Part shown: piece after piece, positions 7,914 through 18,449 of the stretch
Position numbering within the stretch: the stretch's first letter is position 1
Layout: the number at the start of each line of letters is the position of its first letter
Source: a virus
Reading direction: 5' to 3' (one strand)
Virus record (IMG/VR): IMGVR_UViG_3300048837_002246
Span: 1 to 33,118 of that record
DNA length: 33,118 nucleotides
Translations under genes and position numbers: made by a program
The notes under the pieces: model-generated
What the model was told of the DNA's origin: nothing
The model's database searches: none
The model's input: only the letters and a program-made list of their open reading frames with translations

Positions 7914-8912
7914 ATGGCAACAAAACTTGGAGTAGATTTTGGTCAGAGTTCTGTAAAGATCGTTGGTGCGGCTGGGAATGTGCAGTTCCTTTCGCAGGTT
8001 GCGTTGATCGGCGATATGAGCGTGGATGTGCCTGCTATGGGTCGCCGTGCGAAACGCCCAATGGTGGTCGAAAATGGGGTGGGTCCATATTTTGTGGGAC
8101 CGAAGGCTCACCAATGGGGTACGCCCATCGAGAATATCAATTATGAACGTTTAGCGGACGCGACCTCGGGAATGAAGGCGATCTTCCACGGCGCGTTGAC
8201 CGAATATCAAAATAAATTTGGGCGCTTTGAAGAACCGCTTGAGGTTGTAGTGGGTCTGCCGATGCAGATGATGACTGGGGAAAATAAGGATAAATACGAG
8301 CGGCAGGTGAAGGCGTGGGTTGGCGGCGAACATCGCTGGAATGCAAATGGTGTGCAGCACGAATCCATAATTACCAAAGTAGGTCTTGTGCCGCAGGCGA
8401 TGGGTGCAGTGGTGGATTATGCGTTTGACCATGATGGGAATGCTGTAAGCGCCGAGAATAATAAGGCGTTGACGCAAGAATGTGCGACGATCTGGATCGG
8501 GTCTTCCACTGTTGAATTGGCTGTTACGAAACGATCTGAGGACACCAAACGTTTCAATGGATCATCGCCAGTGGGTGTGAAGTGGTTGCACAACCAAGTG
8601 GACCCGACTGGGGCGTGGAAATTTGGCGAGTTCGATGAAATGCTGAGGGTGAACGATCTGCCAGACGGGATGGATATCGCCAAGTTCATGGATGCCTGGT
8701 ATGCGGTCATCAATGGTTTTATTTCCAGCCGCTGGATGCAGGATGGTGCAGATGCCACGAAACGTTTTTATCGCATCTTTGTGGGCGGCGGTGGAAGTTT
8801 GCTGTTGCGCGAGCAGATGCAGGCAAGGTTCGGCTCGAAGGTGATTTTCCCGAAGGACCCGATCATGTCTATTGCGAATGGCTTGTATAAGGCTGCTCTG
8901 CGAGGTAAGTAA
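7914..8912 (+). CDS. parM: actin-like ATPase, ParM-type plasmid segregation protein
   Basis: The 332-residue length fits ParM-type actins. The N-terminus has the phosphate-1 loop (GVDFGQSSVKIVG, residues 6-18). VVVGLPMQMM around residue 107 matches the block before the second phosphate region. VGGGGSLL near residue 291 is the adenosine motif. The C-terminal DPIMSIANGLYKAA resembles the ParM family ending, where the name-and-place motif reads D-P-x-x-A-x-G. Family members form dynamic filaments that push DNA copies apart, together with a small DNA-binding ParR and a centromere. A 3-bp TAATG overlap links it to the small gene downstream. AAAGGAG stands in front of the ATG. Symbol given by family resemblance. 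Confidence 0.75.
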   Translation: MATKLGVDFGQSSVKIVGAAGNVQFLSQVALIGDMSVDVPAMGRRAKRPMVVENGVGPYFVGPKAHQWGTPIENINYERLADATSGMKAIFHGALTEYQNKFGRFEEPLEVVVGLPMQMMTGENKDKYERQVKAWVGGEHRWNANGVQHESIITKVGLVPQAMGAVVDYAFDHDGNAVSAENNKALTQECATIWIGSSTVELAVTKRSEDTKRFNGSSPVGVKWLHNQVDPTGAWKFGEFDEMLRVNDLPDGMDIAKFMDAWYAVINGFISSRWMQDGADATKRFYRIFVGGGGSLLLREQMQARFGSKVIFPKDPIMSIANGLYKAALRGK

Positions 8913-9420: not shown

Positions 9421-9879
9421 ATGCGGAAGATGACTGTGAATGAATTGACTCATGATGGATGGAGACGATTGAAGATCGTTGGTGATGCAGTGATCGATGT
9501 GGAGCCTTATATGCGCCTGGTGCCATTGGTGGCGCGTGAACATTTGGTCACTAACCATGGTCATGATGAACTGCTGAGTTTATTTTCGCTGGAGATTTTG
9601 TATCCCGTTTATGGTCCCTATCAAGTCATGATTCATGGTCCTAAGAAATTCCGCAATTTGATGTTTGTTCACCATGTGTATTCCAAACGTGTGAGTGAGT
9701 GTATTGACCTGGCAAGAGTTGAGTTTTTTGCTGGCACGCGCTTTGCGCCCATCTACGCATATGTTCAAAAACTTCCCAAGGGCGCGGAAGATGGGATGGA
9801 TGTGCATGGCTGTATTTTGCTGGCGGCTGAGTGGATGCCTGCCAATTGTGTTGCGACTGGAGGTTGCGATGGTTATTAA
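9421..9879 (+). CDS. hypothetical phage protein
   Basis: I do not recognise this 152-residue protein. It looks like a compact alpha/beta fold with many His residues in its middle (HGHDELLS, MFVHHVYSKR) and three Cys residues, two of them close to the C-terminus. There is no signal peptide or membrane helix. It begins a run of small overlapping genes up to 11579, all with good ribosome sites, and its last 11 bases overlap the start of the next gene. The ATG at 9421 is preceded by AAGGATGAATT. Confidence 0.55.
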   Translation: MRKMTVNELTHDGWRRLKIVGDAVIDVEPYMRLVPLVAREHLVTNHGHDELLSLFSLEILYPVYGPYQVMIHGPKKFRNLMFVHHVYSKRVSECIDLARVEFFAGTRFAPIYAYVQKLPKGAEDGMDVHGCILLAAEWMPANCVATGGCDGY

Positions 9880-10198
9880 AAGCACAAGACCGATGAAGCC
9901 GTTCAGGTGCAAGAATGGTCATATCCTTGGCTACGTGCGCTGGAACGATGATGATATTCCGCAGTTGATGGTGCTGCGGGAGAGCATGGACATGGAAGCG
10001 GAACGACCCGAGGAAGTGGATTATTTAGGTCCGCTGGATGGGAATATGCCGATCCGTTGCAAGTGTGATGAGGTAATGGTGTGGCGGATCAGTGTAGATA
10101 GCCTGTTGGCGATCTTTGCGCAGTTGGATGACGCGAAGGTATTTGAGTTTTCGCGGCGGCTGTTGGAGATGAGTCGGAAAGGTGAAGGTGTGAAATGA
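9869..10198 (+). CDS. hypothetical protein with cysteine pairs
   Basis: I chose the ATG at 9869 because TGGAGG precedes it and the 11-bp overlap with the upstream gene is normal here; the frame stays open upstream to 9695 only as a shadow. The 109-residue product has FRCKNGHILG (C14, H17) and IRCKCDE (C64, C66), a spacing that could hold one zinc ion, followed by a helical, charged C-terminus. It is probably a small zinc-binding protein of the phage accessory set. It overlaps the next start by 4 bases (ATGA). Confidence 0.55.
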   Translation: MVIKSTRPMKPFRCKNGHILGYVRWNDDDIPQLMVLRESMDMEAERPEEVDYLGPLDGNMPIRCKCDEVMVWRISVDSLLAIFAQLDDAKVFEFSRRLLEMSRKGEGVK

Positions 10199-12793: not shown

Positions 12794-13012
12794 ATGATGA
12801 TATCTATAAAAGCCTATGGTGATGAAAAATTCTATATCAACACCGATCTAATTGAATCAATAATTGAGAGACAAGGAAATACATCTGAGATCAGATTGAC
12901 CAATGGACATATTTATACTTCAATCGAATCGCCTGAAAAATTATCTAATCGTATATCAATGGCTCAGATGTCATCTCAGCTTGCAAAACCTAAAAGCAAC
13001 TTGACAACTTAG
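12794..13012 (+). CDS. FlbD-like small protein
   Basis: The 72-residue product resembles the flagellar FlbD family (PF06289): a short beta-strand start, then FYINTDLIESI, EIRLTNGHIYTSIESPEKL and a C-terminal helix, in the order and spacing of FlbD's 'f.lNadlIe.Ie...DtvItLtnGkk..V.es.eev' plan. FlbD family proteins are linked to flagellar operons in bacteria, but short copies appear in phages too, where their role is unknown. The frame is open further upstream to 12614, but the ATG at 12794 matches the family start. Its last codons contain the TTGACA of a strong promoter, and the stop codon lies in the spacer. Confidence 0.55.
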   Translation: MMISIKAYGDEKFYINTDLIESIIERQGNTSEIRLTNGHIYTSIESPEKLSNRISMAQMSSQLAKPKSNLTT

Positions 13013-13029
13013 AACGACTGTTCTAAAAT
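13001..13029 (+). promoter_or_regulatory. strong sigma70-type promoter with a palindrome in its spacer
   Basis: TTGACA (13001-13006), a 17-bp spacer, then TAAAAT (13024-13029), one base from consensus. The spacer holds AGAACGACTGTTCT (13011-13024), whose core is GAAC-N4-GTTC, the pattern of Gram-positive LexA boxes. A repressor bound here would block RNA polymerase. The promoter overlaps the end of the FlbD-like gene and points at the first TerS-like gene. Confidence 0.65.
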
Positions 13030-13037
13030 ATTTTATA

Positions 13038-13080
13038 GAACAACCGGCATGCGGGTGCCCGCCCTGCATGCCGGTTGTTC
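13038..13080 (+). promoter_or_regulatory. 5'-end stem-loop of the transcript from the 13001 promoter
   Basis: A perfect 15-bp stem (GAACAACCGGCATGC, 13038-13052, with 13066-13080) encloses the loop GGGTGCCCGCCCT. It begins within about 2 bases of the predicted transcription start. No clear T-run follows, so it may be an RNA control element rather than a terminator, although terminating read-through from upstream is possible. Confidence 0.6.
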
Positions 13081-13120: not shown

Positions 13121-13750
13121 ATGCCCGTATCAAAACCTATTTACCAATTGCCATTGATCTTGGATCTGCCTGAGGCGGATGATCTGAATATCTCTGCGGA
13201 GGATGCGCGGATCAAAGCAGAGGCGGCACGTAAAACATTAGAGGGGATGTATGGAAAGATCGGTTCCCCCAAGTGGCTTGAAGACTATAACGAATTGGTG
13301 CGAGGCGGCTGGCATTGGCGGGTGGCAGCGTATATTGCCTGGGCATCGAGCCCGCGTTTTGGAAGAGAACCAAAGACACAGGATGAGTTGGCTCGCTTTC
13401 ACCTGGGATTGAATAGTGATCGGGTGATCGCCACCTGGCGCAGGAAGAACCCTGCCATCGATGAGACGGTGCGTCTGCTGCAGGCGGCTCCGCTTTTCAA
13501 GCATCGAGCGGAGATCTACACGGCGCTTGTGGCTGTAGCAGTGAAGCCTGAATATAAAAGCCATAATGACCGCAAGTTGGCTTTAGAGTTGTTGGGCGAT
13601 CATGTACCCACTTCAAAGCTGCAGGCGGAATTGAAACGCAGGGGAATCAGCATGGATGATATTAGCGAGCTGAGCGATGCTGAGTTGATGGAGATCTCAC
13701 GCGCTGCAGAAGATCGTTTGCAGCCGATGAATGGTGAGGGTGAAGAATAA
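13121..13750 (+). CDS. TerS-like protein 1 (terminase small-subunit paralog)
   Basis: The 209-residue protein is a clear paralog of the one at 16141-16860. Shared blocks include LVRGGWHWRVAAYIAW, TQDELARFHLGL-x-SDRVIATWR, the HNDRKLALELLGDHVPTSK region (about residues 146-164) and DISELSDAELMEI near the C-terminus. The repeated HTH-like layout, the NADRKLLLE/HNDRKLALE ending and the link to a large terminase downstream for its sister point to the phBC6A51-type terminase small subunit. This copy lies apart from TerL, directly before the ParB-like/methyltransferase gene, with which it overlaps by one base. GAGGATGA precedes the ATG. It may act in packaging recognition or as a DNA-binding partner of the methylase. 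Confidence 0.65.
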   Translation: MPVSKPIYQLPLILDLPEADDLNISAEDARIKAEAARKTLEGMYGKIGSPKWLEDYNELVRGGWHWRVAAYIAWASSPRFGREPKTQDELARFHLGLNSDRVIATWRRKNPAIDETVRLLQAAPLFKHRAEIYTALVAVAVKPEYKSHNDRKLALELLGDHVPTSKLQAELKRRGISMDDISELSDAELMEISRAAEDRLQPMNGEGEE

Positions 13751-15069
13751 TGGAAATCAAACATGACCAGCATAATGCCAATAAGGGAACGAAGCGAGGC
13801 AAGGAGTTATTGAATCAGTCGCTGCGCGAGTTGGGAGGCGGGCGGTCTATTCTGCTTGATAAGGATGGGAACATCATCGCTGGAAATAAAACGTATGAAG
13901 AAGCACAGAAGCTTGGGTTGAAGGTGCGGGTGATCGAAGCTGGCAAGGATGAGCTTGTGGCGGTACAACGGGGAGATCTGGATCTGAATGATGGCACAGG
14001 GGATGCGCGACGCCTGGCGTATTTGGACAACCGTGTTTCGGAGTTGGATCTAGCTTGGGATGAGGACCAGCTCGCGTTTGATATTGCGGCGGGGCTGGAT
14101 CTGTATCCGCTTGGGTTCAATGAGAACGAGTTGTTTCTTATCATTGGGGAGCCAGAAGAAGAGGTGGATGCGAAACCGGAGTTTGATAAAGCGGATGAAT
14201 TGCGAAACAAGTGGAATGTGCAAACCGGACAGATGTGGAGGCTTGGCAACCATTATCTAATTTGCGGAGATTGCACAGCGGCATACGTTGTGGAGCGGGT
14301 CCTGCAAGGCAGTAAGTTTGATTTGCTTTGCACGGATCCGCCATATGGGGTCAATGTTCATGGTGGTGAAGGCGGCGAAATGGTGATCGCTAATGATTCG
14401 CCTGAGGATGTGCCGGATCTGTTATTGAGTGCGTTTCGCCTGGCGGTGAAATGGGCGGAGAAGAAGTCAGCTTTCTATATTGCGGGTCCGCATGGACCGC
14501 AGTCGCATGAGTTCTCGAAGGCAATCCTCGCCGCAGGGATGGATTGGAAACAAACGTTGGTATGGTCCAAGAATAATATTGTGCTGGGGAGGAGTGATTA
14601 TCAACAAAAGCATGAAATATTTTTCTATGGAAATTTCGGGCATGGTCGAGTTTGGAATGGTGGACGAAAGCAAAAGAGCGTGACTGAAGAGCAGCAGAAA
14701 CTGTTGAGTTTTATCGATGAGAATACGGTGCAGGTGATGCTTGGCACTGAGATGTACGCCATTCAGGGTGATAACCTTGAGGTTTCGCAAATCGAGCCGG
14801 ATGTGATGCGAGTGGAGAAGCCGCAGAAAAGCGAGTTGCACCCGACGATCAAGCCGATGAAGTTGATCCGCAGAATGATACGCAATAGCACGGAACGAGG
14901 TGCAGTTGTTTATGATCCATTCAGTGGTTCAGGGACGACGATCTTGGCATGTGAGAATGATAGTCGCAGGTGTTGTGCTGTTGAGCTATTGCCAAAATAT
15001 GCGGCGGTGAATTTGCAACGGTGGTTTGATGCTACCGGTGTGTTGCCTGTTTTGCTTGACAATTCATAA
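13750..15069 (+). CDS. ParB-like N-domain fused to DNA methyltransferase
   Basis: The first about 95 residues resemble the ParB-like/sulfiredoxin-type domain often found in front of phage methylases (SILLDKDGNIIAGNKTYEEAQKLG, then DLDLNDGTGDARRLAYLDNRVSEL). The methyltransferase part begins with QMWRLGNHYLICGDCT, has the catalytic DPPY at residues 196-199, and the S-adenosylmethionine loop DPFSGSGTT at 389-397. Catalytic motif before SAM motif marks the beta class. DPPY points to N6-adenine (N4-cytosine is less likely). No restriction enzyme is near, so it is an orphan methylase, perhaps for protection from host restriction or for marking DNA for packaging. The 3' end carries the TTGACA of the next promoter. 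Confidence 0.85.
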   Translation: MEIKHDQHNANKGTKRGKELLNQSLRELGGGRSILLDKDGNIIAGNKTYEEAQKLGLKVRVIEAGKDELVAVQRGDLDLNDGTGDARRLAYLDNRVSELDLAWDEDQLAFDIAAGLDLYPLGFNENELFLIIGEPEEEVDAKPEFDKADELRNKWNVQTGQMWRLGNHYLICGDCTAAYVVERVLQGSKFDLLCTDPPYGVNVHGGEGGEMVIANDSPEDVPDLLLSAFRLAVKWAEKKSAFYIAGPHGPQSHEFSKAILAAGMDWKQTLVWSKNNIVLGRSDYQQKHEIFFYGNFGHGRVWNGGRKQKSVTEEQQKLLSFIDENTVQVMLGTEMYAIQGDNLEVSQIEPDVMRVEKPQKSELHPTIKPMKLIRRMIRNSTERGAVVYDPFSGSGTTILACENDSRRCCAVELLPKYAAVNLQRWFDATGVLPVLLDNS

Positions 15070-15083
15070 AAAGAATCTATAAT
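15056..15083 (+). promoter_or_regulatory. near-perfect sigma70 promoter
   Basis: TTGACA (15056-15061), a 16-bp spacer and TATAAT (15078-15083) match both consensus hexamers exactly. The stop codon of the methyltransferase lies in the spacer. The predicted start is A15090, the first base of the following stem-loop. Confidence 0.8.
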
Positions 15084-15089
15084 GCAGAC

Positions 15090-15296
15090 ATTGACCGTCA
15101 GGGTGCCCCCCTCACCCTGGCGGTCAATGCTTTAAGGAAGATTAGAATCTCTGTTCTGACTCTTGTTAAATTTTTTAAATTGTGTTAAAAATGGAGAGTA
15201 CAACTCAATACATTTTGCACCGCCCGCCCAATGTGGCAGGCATGTTTCGGAGATAAGCGCCCGATGACCATCAACGGTCATCGGGCGCTTTTTTAT
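15090..15296 (+). ncRNA. candidate ~205-nt leader RNA, lambda 6S-like position
   Basis: The stretch starts at the predicted start of the 15056 promoter and ends at the T-run of a strong terminator. It begins with a 16-bp stem (15090-15105 with 15113-15128, one G-U pair, loop of CCCCCCT). It continues through an AT-rich middle and ends with the 15-bp terminator stem. Only tiny frames without ribosome sites are open (17 codons from 15082; 21 codons from 15191). In lambda, promoter pR' makes the 194-nt 6S RNA ending at tR', and the Q protein lets polymerase continue into the late genes. The geometry here is the same, with the late genes straight after the terminator. No Q-like protein is recognised in the window. 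Confidence 0.6.
15255..15296 (+). terminator. strong Rho-independent terminator before the late genes
   Basis: A perfect 15-bp stem (AAGCGCCCGATGACC at 15255-15269 with 15276-15290) has a 6-nt loop and is followed by TTTTTTATTTAT. It would end the transcript started at 15090 unless polymerase is modified. Confidence 0.9.
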
Positions 15297-15334
15297 TTAT
15301 CCCACATCGTGGGTATTCAAAAAAGGAGATTTAC

Positions 15335-15808
15335 ATGAAAAGGTTCTTCCAAGTTTTTTTTGTTGTTATGCTGATTGCCGCTTTTTTTGCGGTGCCGGTT
15401 TTTGCGCAGGGTTTGGCGCAGGATGAGCAGCCACTTGACCTGACTGGTGCTTTACAGGCTGCGGGTCAATTTGTGCTTGGCAGTCTGGCAATTGCCGCTG
15501 CTGCCACCTTCGTGACCAACACATTCAAGTCCGCTGGATTGGTTACGGACACTCAAGCCATTACCTGGGTAAGCACGATCAATTTCATCCTCATCATCGC
15601 GGTTTTCCTATTGAAACTTTTCGCGCCAACCTTCGACCTAGGCATTATCGAGAAAGTCGCTGATGGAATTGCGAAGCAGGGTCCAGGCTTCATCCTTCCG
15701 CTGATGCCGCTGTTGGTGGCATTCTCGAAGTGGATTCACGGCGCGGTCAAGGGCGCGAAGTGGATTGGTACTTCGAACAGCTTGAAGCTGGCTGCCGCGA
15801 AGAAATAA
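15335..15808 (+). CDS. multi-pass membrane protein with signal-like N-terminus, holin candidate
   Basis: The 157-residue protein starts with a signal-like segment (MKRFFQVFFVVMLIAAFFAVPVFAQ) with a possible cleavage site after VFA. At least two more hydrophobic helices follow (about residues 45-62 and 82-98), plus a further hydrophobic stretch near 120-135, and a Lys-rich tail. AAGGAG lies 7-8 bases before the ATG. It is the first gene after the terminator and stands before the terminase genes. Position and membrane character fit a holin or another lysis/entry membrane protein, but no endolysin is present in the window, so this is not proven. Other choice: a structural membrane protein. Confidence 0.55.
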   Translation: MKRFFQVFFVVMLIAAFFAVPVFAQGLAQDEQPLDLTGALQAAGQFVLGSLAIAAAATFVTNTFKSAGLVTDTQAITWVSTINFILIIAVFLLKLFAPTFDLGIIEKVADGIAKQGPGFILPLMPLLVAFSKWIHGAVKGAKWIGTSNSLKLAAAKK

Positions 15809-15824
15809 GAATATCCAAGGATAG

Positions 15825-15853
15825 TAGGGGCGGGGATAAAAACCCTGCCCCTA
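15825..15853 (+). terminator. GC-rich hairpin between the two membrane genes
   Basis: TAGGGGCGGGG (15825-15835) pairs with CCCTGCCCCTA (15843-15853), an 11-bp stem with one G-U pair and a 7-nt loop, directly followed by TTTAG and the next start codon. The T-run is too short for an efficient terminator, so it may lower read-through or block 5' access to the next start. Confidence 0.35.
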
Positions 15854-15860
15854 TTTAGTG

Positions 15861-16139
15861 ATGCTTATGGATTCATCCACTCTCAACCTTTTATTGCAAA
15901 TACCACTTGCCGGTGTGGTGGTCTTTGTCGTTGTTGTGTTCCTGAAACATTTGCGGGAGACCCAAACGCAGATGATCACTTTCATGAGCCAGCAGGCAGA
16001 AACGAACCGGCAATTCCTTGCTACGCAGCGCGAGCAGATGAACGCGGCAATTGCTCGCATGGCTGAGGAACTAAAACTCATGCGCGAAAACTTCGCGGAA
16101 TATCGTGGCGTAACTCGCAAGCGCAATAGGAACGTGTGA
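15861..16139 (+). CDS. membrane protein with coiled coil, BhlA/holin-like
   Basis: The ATG at 15861 is taken; GTG at 15858 and ATG at 15867 are close alternatives, and no strong ribosome site is seen. The 92-residue product has one N-terminal membrane helix (IPLAGVVVFVVVVFLKHL, about residues 13-31) followed by a long charged coiled coil (about 32-85) and a basic end. This is the layout of BhlA/UviB-like small holins and of phage spanin-like or membrane-anchored coiled-coil proteins. The gene ends just before the second TerS ATG (one base apart). Confidence 0.55.
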   Translation: MLMDSSTLNLLLQIPLAGVVVFVVVVFLKHLRETQTQMITFMSQQAETNRQFLATQREQMNAAIARMAEELKLMRENFAEYRGVTRKRNRNV

Positions 16140-16140
16140 A

Positions 16141-16860
16141 ATGACCAACGGACGATTGGACCAGCCAGTTTATCAACTCGAAATGCAGTTAAAGGACGTG
16201 GTGGAAGCAATTCAATATCAGGAATTGACTTCCCGTGAAACCGCGCTTGCGGCTCTTTCCGCGTTGAGGGCTAAAGAACCCATCGTCGAAACCTATCGTG
16301 AGAAGGATGACAAAAGTAATAAGGTCATTGAGAAGACTCTTGTCGTGGGCGAGCGTGAGATCGTGCCACGCTGGATGGATTTATTCAAAAAACTTGTAGA
16401 AGGAGGTTGGCGCTGGGAAGTTGCCGTTTATATCGCCTGGCGATCCATGCCAAAGAAATACCGCTACCCTGAAACGCAGGAAGAACTTGCCACCCAATGC
16501 TTAGGATTGAAATCTGACCGCGCGATTGCTACATGGCGGAAGAGCAATCCATTTATCGATGAATACATTACCGTTTTGCAGGGTGAGCTGGTGTTTGATC
16601 GCATCCCGGATGTATTGGATGCAATGACTGAGGTCGCCTCTACTCCAGATTACAAAGGTAACGCGGATCGAAAACTTTTGCTGGAGATGACCGGACGATA
16701 TACGCCTTCATCGAAGATTACAGCAGAGATGGCAAAGAGGCTGGTCAACAGTAAGCCCGAGGATTTGGAAGAATTGAGCGATGACCAACTGCGGCAAATC
16801 GAAGAGACTGCCAAATACGCACGTATCCATCGACCCCAAAATGAGGAGACGGCAGAATGA
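16141..16860 (+). CDS. terminase small subunit (TerS-like protein 2)
   Basis: The 239-residue protein is followed directly by the large terminase with a 4-base overlap, the classic TerS-TerL order. The conserved part (about residues 77-220) has the same blocks as the paralog at 13121: LVEGGWRWEVAVYIAW, TQEELATQCLGLKSDRAIATWRKSNP, NADRKLLLEMTGRYTPSSK and DLEELSDDQLRQIEE. The N-terminal 75 residues are not shared. TerS proteins bind the packaging site and start cutting by TerL. The paralogs diverge mostly in their ends, which suggests different partners or DNA targets. Confidence 0.7.
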   Translation: MTNGRLDQPVYQLEMQLKDVVEAIQYQELTSRETALAALSALRAKEPIVETYREKDDKSNKVIEKTLVVGEREIVPRWMDLFKKLVEGGWRWEVAVYIAWRSMPKKYRYPETQEELATQCLGLKSDRAIATWRKSNPFIDEYITVLQGELVFDRIPDVLDAMTEVASTPDYKGNADRKLLLEMTGRYTPSSKITAEMAKRLVNSKPEDLEELSDDQLRQIEETAKYARIHRPQNEETAE

Positions 16861-18449
16861 ATTCAGTTTCTGTCAGGGCGCATGATCCACAAGCGGCTCG
16901 TGGAGAACGCGCAAGACGTGAATTGGCTCGCCGCCACTTGATCGATTACAGCAAGTATGTGGCTCCGTGGTATCAGCCTGCACGGCATCATATATATCTT
17001 GCTGAAAAGCTCGAGCAGGTGAAGCTTTATATCGAGACAAAAGGCACGACCGGCATCGGACGATTGTTGATCTGCGAACCTGCGCAATATGGAAAGACCG
17101 AACAGGCAAGCCGTTTATTCCCTTCGTGGCTATTGGGCGATTTGCCAGATACGCGCATCATTCTTTGTTCTTATGGCGCTGACTTGGCTACAGAAAACAG
17201 CCGGCATACCCGCAATTATGTTGGGAGTGAAGCGTATGCCAGAATCTTTGGCAATCGTTCAGCTGTAGATGAACCCGTCGAACTCAGCCCCGAGAGCAGA
17301 TCGATTGTGTCCTGGAATTTGAAGGACCATCGAGGATCTGTTTTCGCGGCTGGTGTTGGCGGTGGTATTACCGGGCGACCTGCAAACCTGATCGTGATCG
17401 ACGACCCGTTCAAATCACGCGAAGACGCGGAGAGCGAAACCTACCGCAAGAAAGTGATGAGCTGGTATCGCTCAGTCATTTATCCGCGTATTGCAAATAC
17501 GCCAGGCGCGGCGATCATCATCATGCACACGCGTTGGGATCAGGAAGACCTCGCGGGGCAACTGCTGACGCAAATGGTAAGCGACCCGGAAGCCGATCAG
17601 TGGGAGGTTGTTTTTTTGCCCGCTTTGGCATTGCAGGATGAACAATATCCAAAGACCGAAGCGGAATACCGCGAGAATTTATTGCGCGGCATTTACATCC
17701 CGATGACGGGTGACCCGCTAGGGCGCAAGCCAGGTGAAGCACTATGGCGGGAACGCTCGGATGAGAAGAAGCTCGCATCGACTCGCGCCAACATGATGGA
17801 TTACGACTTCGAGGCGATCTTCCAGCAGTTACCGCGCATGGCTGAGGGTGAGTTCTTCGATGAGAAGGATTTTGAAATCATCGAGAAGGGTCCCGAAAAT
17901 TTGCAGTGGTATCGCTACTGTGATCTCGCGTTAGGTGAGACCAAAACCAGCGATAGCAATTCCACTTTAGCCGTTGCACTCGATGAAAAAACAGGCGATT
18001 TGCATTTGAGAGACCGCATCAAGGTGCGCAGCTTGGATGAATTCCTTGCGCAGGTTGGCACGGCGATGCTTTCCGATTCTGAGAACGGAACAGAATGGGG
18101 CTTTGAGGATGTCGCTTTTCAAAAGCTGGTCATCAAGGAATTTTTGAAACAAAAGAAATTTACAAAGGTGCGGATGCGGTCCGTGAAACCGAACGGTGAC
18201 AAGGTCGAGCGGGCACGTCCGTGGCAATTGAGAGGCAAACAAGGTCACGTGAAGTTATGGCGCGGAGCGTGGAATCGGGATTTCTTGCGTGAGGCAACAT
18301 CATTTCCAAAGGGACGCCATGACGATGATGTGGATACCGTCAGCGGCGGTGTGCAGATGATCGCTGAGGATGGCGGCGACCAGAAGACGGCGAGTAGTGA
18401 AGCGGTGGTGGTTTCCATCGAATCAATGTTTCAAGGAGTAATGCAATGA
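16857..18449 (+). CDS. terL: terminase large subunit
   Basis: The 530-residue length is normal for TerL. The ATPase half has a Walker A variant, PAQYGKTE (K80, T81), the SYGADLATENSRHTRN block (about 105-120), and a Walker B, NLIVIDDPFK (D182, D183), followed by IIMHTRWDQEDLAG, the motif III region of this family. The nuclease half begins near residue 354 with CDLALGE, then YRYCD supplies a metal-binding Asp, and a late HDDDVD cluster (about residue 487) supplies more. TerL cuts concatemer DNA and drives it into the procapsid through the portal. Its stop overlaps the next ATG (ATGA). Confidence 0.9.
   Translation: MNSVSVRAHDPQAARGERARRELARRHLIDYSKYVAPWYQPARHHIYLAEKLEQVKLYIETKGTTGIGRLLICEPAQYGKTEQASRLFPSWLLGDLPDTRIILCSYGADLATENSRHTRNYVGSEAYARIFGNRSAVDEPVELSPESRSIVSWNLKDHRGSVFAAGVGGGITGRPANLIVIDDPFKSREDAESETYRKKVMSWYRSVIYPRIANTPGAAIIIMHTRWDQEDLAGQLLTQMVSDPEADQWEVVFLPALALQDEQYPKTEAEYRENLLRGIYIPMTGDPLGRKPGEALWRERSDEKKLASTRANMMDYDFEAIFQQLPRMAEGEFFDEKDFEIIEKGPENLQWYRYCDLALGETKTSDSNSTLAVALDEKTGDLHLRDRIKVRSLDEFLAQVGTAMLSDSENGTEWGFEDVAFQKLVIKEFLKQKKFTKVRMRSVKPNGDKVERARPWQLRGKQGHVKLWRGAWNRDFLREATSFPKGRHDDDVDTVSGGVQMIAEDGGDQKTASSEAVVVSIESMFQGVMQ

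Follow-up and report, generated by a model that had tools for sequence, protein, structure and literature searches.

A putative two-module RNA control block before the late genes of a presumed Anaerolineales phage

The put RNA of phage HK022 brings about protein-free antitermination via the zinc-binding domain of the polymerase beta' subunit. It consists of a pair of hairpins that closely follows a phage promoter (PMC9378689). Two tandem hairpins are likewise the targets of the ANTAR antiterminators such as NasR and EutV, where the second hairpin overlaps and excludes the terminator (PMC7496416). At the late promoter of phage lambda, antitermination by Q requires a DNA element together with a sigma-dependent pause (PMC7171158). 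Among small RNAs, the actinobacterial 6C RNA, mycobacterial B11 (RF01066), is a hairpin RNA with a C-rich loop, sometimes present in several copies per genome and also found on plasmids (PMC9569102).

The window analysed here is the whole stretch of 33,118 nt, positions 1 to 33,118 of the IMG/VR virus record IMGVR_UViG_3300048837_002246, and belongs to a phage whose host is presumably an Anaerolineales bacterium. To our knowledge, little is known about gene regulation in Anaerolineae and their phages. The region found no match in a phage nucleotide database, and 29 TerL relatives were detected in IMG/VR, before whose late genes a similar promoter/leader/terminator arrangement recurs. A first-pass annotation had read the region ahead of the late genes as a lambda pR'/6S RNA-like switch, that is a promoter, a gene-free leader RNA of about 205 nt and a terminator, and had proposed looking for this arrangement in related phages. 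Its outline holds: no plus-strand ORF of at least 50 aa lies in 15070-15334, the gene at 15335 does open the late block and is followed by the TerS-like gene and TerL, and dozens of related phages carry a promoter, a leader RNA and a terminator before membrane-protein, TerS-like and TerL genes. The assignment to the pR'/Q class is not supported, with no Q-family protein found in the record and a different conserved geometry. The positions of all features are collected in Table 1.

Table 1. Features of the putative control block and of the beginning of the late genes (positions in the window)
Feature	Positions	Strand	Remark
P_A, TTGACA-N16-TATAAT	15056..15083	+	12/12 sigma-70 match
Module A hairpin, 17 bp, core TGCCCCCCTCA	15089..15129	+	apparent member of an Anaerolineales small-RNA family
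LexA-like dyad GAATCTCTGTTC	15145..15156	+	7/8 matches to GAACN4GTTC; just upstream of P_B
P_B late promoter, TTGTTA-N17-TAAAAA	15163..15191	+	aligned with relatives
Module B leader hairpin 1	15222..15241	+	covarying stem in alignments; fold
Linker UCGG, 5' side of proposed antiterminator helix	15247..15250	+	pairs with 15261-15264
CCGA in terminator 5' arm, 3' side of proposed antiterminator helix	15261..15264	+	truncated-leader fold
Predicted intrinsic terminator stem-loop	15255..15290	+	T-rich tail to ~15300
Late block start	15335..18449	+	two small membrane-protein genes, TerS-like gene, TerL
First late gene	15335-15808	+	
TerS-like gene	16141-16860	+	name from position
TerL	16857-18449	+	

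The perfect 15-bp stem at 15255-15290 with its T-rich tail, which the earlier reading had already described, is the strongest terminator-like site in the record, and no other strong one stands directly ahead of the late operon. Within the 17.8 kb of late region in the window there is neither a promoter of at least 10/12 matches nor a terminator of this strength. The sole other terminator candidate in that region is a strong 12-bp hairpin at 15824-15854 (15823-15855, with a G-rich 5' arm AGGGGCGGGG), located directly before the second late gene, whose G runs could pair with the loop of module A described below. Strong terminators are few per genome in the related phages, so a local switch would suffice in each of them. 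A pattern search with the product of the first late gene (15335) found no relatives. Elsewhere in the window, 13121-13750 and 16141-16860 are paralogous genes within one phage, the former beside a DNA methyltransferase and the latter next to TerL, and 7914-8912 encodes an actin-like (ALP/ParM type) partition protein with relatives in 9/15 related phages.

Sequence comparison resolves the 205-nt unit into two separable RNA modules, A (15056-15136) and B (15163-15300), and it is this comparison that demonstrates both modules, their covariation, their distribution and their position. This stretch ahead of the late genes folds far better than its shuffles (z -8.9) and contains four elements missed at the first reading, namely the hairpin at 15089-15129, the LexA-like dyad at 15145-15156, the second promoter at 15163-15191 and the leader hairpin at 15222-15241. 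The promoter at 15056, from which the unit had been taken to start, is real, but the conserved unit begins at the second promoter (~15163). P_A and its hairpin are optional: they are absent from 13 phage loci that possess the terminator leader of module B, and they also occur alone in host genomes. Where the two stand together, module B follows module A after 0-82 nt (23 loci, one of which, L208, lies in a host MAG). We consider it fairly probable that these elements form a late-operon control block made up of attenuator B and a phage-carried small-RNA gene A, with the dyads hinting at a tie to DNA damage.

TTGACA-N16-TATAAT at 15056-15083, the promoter already singled out in the first-pass annotation, is the sole 12/12 sigma-70 promoter in the window, where shuffles let us expect 0.005, and the best among 14 promoter candidates in the 10-20 kb region. 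In the host group inferred here, TATAAT does represent a genuine -10 element, since it is 30-fold enriched within at most 25 bases upstream of ORF starts in one Anaerolineales chromosome (G001, first 800 kb, L278-L317). The enrichment near ORF starts in G001 suggests, as an aside, that many mRNAs there are leaderless or nearly leaderless. L016 carries, at 473-575, a further TTGACA-N18-TATAAT promoter, after which come a hairpin containing G8 and a strong terminator.

The 17-bp hairpin of module A starts at the predicted transcription start site, and promoters like P_A, perfect or nearly so, precede the hairpins of its family by a few bases, at equal distance in phages and hosts. Its core reads UG-CCCCCC-UCA. 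A pattern scan of IMG/VR yielded 45 stretches, of which ~30 are real judging by promoter and stem, and the pattern plus a -35 element gave 29 stretches over 84,980 species genomes. All but one of the latter (28/29) lie in records named Chloroflexi, Anaerolineae, Anaerolineales or a member of these; the remaining stretch, in a Bacteroidota MAG, is probably contamination, because the sequence on which it sits nearly equals that of Leptolinea tardivitalis. Across 52 aligned copies, 97% of the cells are paired and 185 are double-changed, compared to 50 in shuffles, and pairing drops to 37-45% in the slid controls; the frequent G-U pairs match RNA made from the promoter (+) strand. As the search patterns demanded the core, its invariance is partly built in. 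A covariance model built without the promoter and used at E <= 1e-6 found matches in 146/201 Anaerolineales genomes, at 1-7 copies each, and in 35/400 evenly drawn Chloroflexota, and in 0/147 Bacteroidota apart from one probably contaminated MAG. The copies that the pattern had missed also tend toward a sigma-70-like promoter at the same distance. An Rfam search at gathering and relaxed thresholds returned chance matches only, and module A is apparently a host small-RNA family carried by phages that has not been described before.

The neighbour genes of the host copies are varied and the downstream gene is often convergent, so that host module A looks like a stand-alone small-RNA gene and not like a leader. 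In some host genomes it stands in tandem, in two or three copies; such tandem genes (L197, L198, L200, L202, L222 and L255) have promoter-like sequences of their own and differ in their stem letters. A role of hairpin A as a cis leader in hosts was rejected on the grounds of these neighbours and of promoters downstream, which are barely above background in hosts, unlike in phages: a promoter of at least 9/12 follows 21% of the host copies (13% in shuffles) and 67% of the viral copies (11% in shuffles). Targeting of Shine-Dalgarno sequences by the C6 loop was also discarded, as sequence complementary to the C-rich loop shows no enrichment ahead of host genes at ribosome-binding sites. Module A most likely works as a small RNA, by way of its exposed C-rich loop. 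The first-pass alternative of an RNA acting in trans suits module A better, and suits the whole 205-nt RNA less.

The short distance between the two modules in the 23 loci, together with the T-rich, terminator-like tail of some module A copies, would also fit a cis element, either an additional late promoter with a 5' hairpin that shields the late mRNA or a terminator against upstream transcription. We consider this explanation unlikely, though worth keeping in mind, given that the host copies have varied neighbours, an often convergent downstream gene and little promoter excess downstream, and that 13 phages carry module B without module A.

Module B has the general promoter form TTGAC-N17-TTAAAAT, with TTGACA/TTGACG-N17-TAAAAT/TAAGAT in the relatives at the position of P_B. 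A scan by 14 fixed bases returned mostly unrelated matches and was abandoned for a covariance model. Module B was found in 1/151 Anaerolineales genomes and is hence essentially a phage feature, located mostly directly upstream of membrane-protein and terminase genes. Around hairpin 1, a crossing CCGC:GCGG pairing was seen by eye; it is partly covarying, with awkward loop lengths.

In 36 sequences, the linker between hairpin 1 and the terminator is complementary to the proximal portion of the terminator 5' arm, with letters differing between phages: AUCAG/CUGAU, CGAAG/CUUCG, GAUGG/CCAUC and AUCGAG/CUCGAU were observed besides UCGG/CCGA in the window. The mean helix measures 4.17 bp over all sequences and 2.96 bp with the arms permuted among phages, and 4.18 bp against 2.75 bp for the 17 distinct arm types; 0/20000 permutations were as good as the observed pairing, and reversed arms, used as a control, gave no signal. 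When leaders are cut just after the 5' arm, the minimum-energy fold contains the linker:arm hairpin in 24/34 phages and lacks it in 10/34, whereas the full-length leaders form the terminator in 34/34. The loops of the linker:arm hairpin span 5-10 nt, mostly 9-10. In the window the antiterminator helix has 4 bp and is clearly weaker than the terminator at equilibrium folding. By its predicted folds, module B has the anatomy of a two-state transcription attenuator, and as this attenuator mostly precedes membrane-protein/terminase genes, late control by terminator read-through is supported in outline.

We infer that both RNAs are transcribed and propose the following course of events. Polymerase would start at P_B or read in from P_A, which in this phage probably also feeds the leader because the tail of the module A hairpin is weak. 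Hairpin 1 would form, and the linker would pair with the terminator 5' arm once this arm emerges. Synthesis of the 3' arm would then let the terminator, which is much stronger, displace the linker:arm pairing, and polymerase would stop before the late genes. Late in infection, the antiterminator shape might be held by a protein of phage or host, or by contact between the RNA itself and polymerase, which would permit transcription of the late genes. Module A would be the phage version of a small hairpin-RNA gene present in most of the sampled Anaerolineales genomes.

A switch of the lambda kind would assign the leader structure no role: a Q-like protein unrelated in sequence would bind promoter DNA and let polymerase ignore the terminator. 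The conservation of promoter, leader and terminator before the late genes agrees with such a protein, yet covariation between linker and arm is not expected if promoter DNA alone matters, and we find this explanation improbable. The first reading had recognised no Q-like protein, and searches with the Q-family profiles PF06530 and PF03589 gave no match in the record, which may be a fragment; unrelated Q families exist, however, so this negative result weighs little. Among the relatives, no gene lies consistently just upstream of the late promoter, which also speaks against a lambda-like switch, and no universal early gene was found among 16 relatives, several of which are fragments. The most widespread small candidate for a switching protein is a small zinc-ribbon protein (CKNGH...CKC) encoded at 9695-10198, present in 10/15 related phages; its true start is probably internal, and neither Pfam nor NCBIfam gave a match for it.

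In every full-length fold the terminator greatly exceeds the alternative pairing in stability, as one would expect of a plain insulator that blocks early read-through with some constitutive leak, the linker similarity being a by-product of terminator history. To this reading we give little credence, as an insulator has no need of the dedicated promoter that stands just upstream in dozens of phages, and as the linker tracks the arm through many sequence changes. Termination resistance without any protein, by direct binding of hairpin 1 and the linker:arm hairpin to polymerase, would match the tandem hairpin pair close behind a phage promoter, an arrangement also seen in HK022 putL, and the lack of a universal regulator gene, but is very doubtful, since the terminator lends its own arm to the second hairpin, and resistance that needs no protein would leave no evident off state.

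Apart from read-through of the attenuator, initiation at P_B might be regulated as well. LexA-like dyads occur at 15/36 late promoters, of which 13 have theirs at either of two fixed positions, against 1.9% in shuffles; the one next to P_B is an imperfect match, and over half of the late promoters have none. The one perfect GAACN4GTTC of the record (13012-13023) is located in the promoter that precedes the 13121 gene and the methyltransferase. There, the unit at 13001-13079 consists of a promoter with this perfect LexA-type box in its spacer, directly followed by a 17-bp hairpin and the 13121 gene, and about ten related phages have such a unit ahead of the homologous gene. A perfect box is also found upstream of a lexA-like gene of one Anaerolineales chromosome. 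LexA control of the late promoters is plausible on this basis, and the presence of dyads at the P_B of some phages hints that DNA damage may also govern initiation there.

Module A offers a clean RNA family for testing: a very small gene of promoter and C6-loop hairpin, which about three quarters of the genomes sampled from the order contain. An attenuator supported by covariation and placed before phage late genes makes late control in uncultivated phages directly testable, and the locus illustrates that a promoter-leader-terminator array resembling lambda pR' can differ in detail. The proposal that A represents a small-RNA family not described so far and present almost throughout the order Anaerolineales, and that B is a new late-attenuator class whose factor is unrelated to Q, N or ANTAR, is put forward tentatively. 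If it is true, phages would have captured module A and positioned it beside their late promoter, where it would influence gene expression in host or phage. A small RNA of the host at a phage late promoter raises the question whether it steers the host or the phage's own late genes.

In comparison with the described systems, module A has only the C-rich hairpin loop in common with actinobacterial 6C RNA, being a single hairpin of ~45 nt right at the start site; the RF01066 model had 0 matches in 61 Anaerolineales genomes and scored below threshold in the window and in 12 host loci. Module B resembles the ANTAR leaders in its two hairpins, the second overlapping the terminator. It differs from them in its second-hairpin loops, which vary in length where ANTAR sites have hexaloops with A1 and G4, and the ANTAR profile (PF03861) has no match within the window. 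Unlike in HK022 put, the second hairpin here uses the terminator arm and stands directly before the terminator. With lambda pR'/6S RNA/tR' the locus shares a promoter, a short leader and a terminator before the late operon, whereas P_B is the conserved promoter here, the P_A module is optional and also present in hosts, and the covarying two-state RNA adds an RNA-RNA switch that is no part of lambda pR'/Q. The locus thus seems to be like lambda pR' in outline, and its predicted anatomy to be closer to the two-hairpin leaders of the ANTAR or put type.
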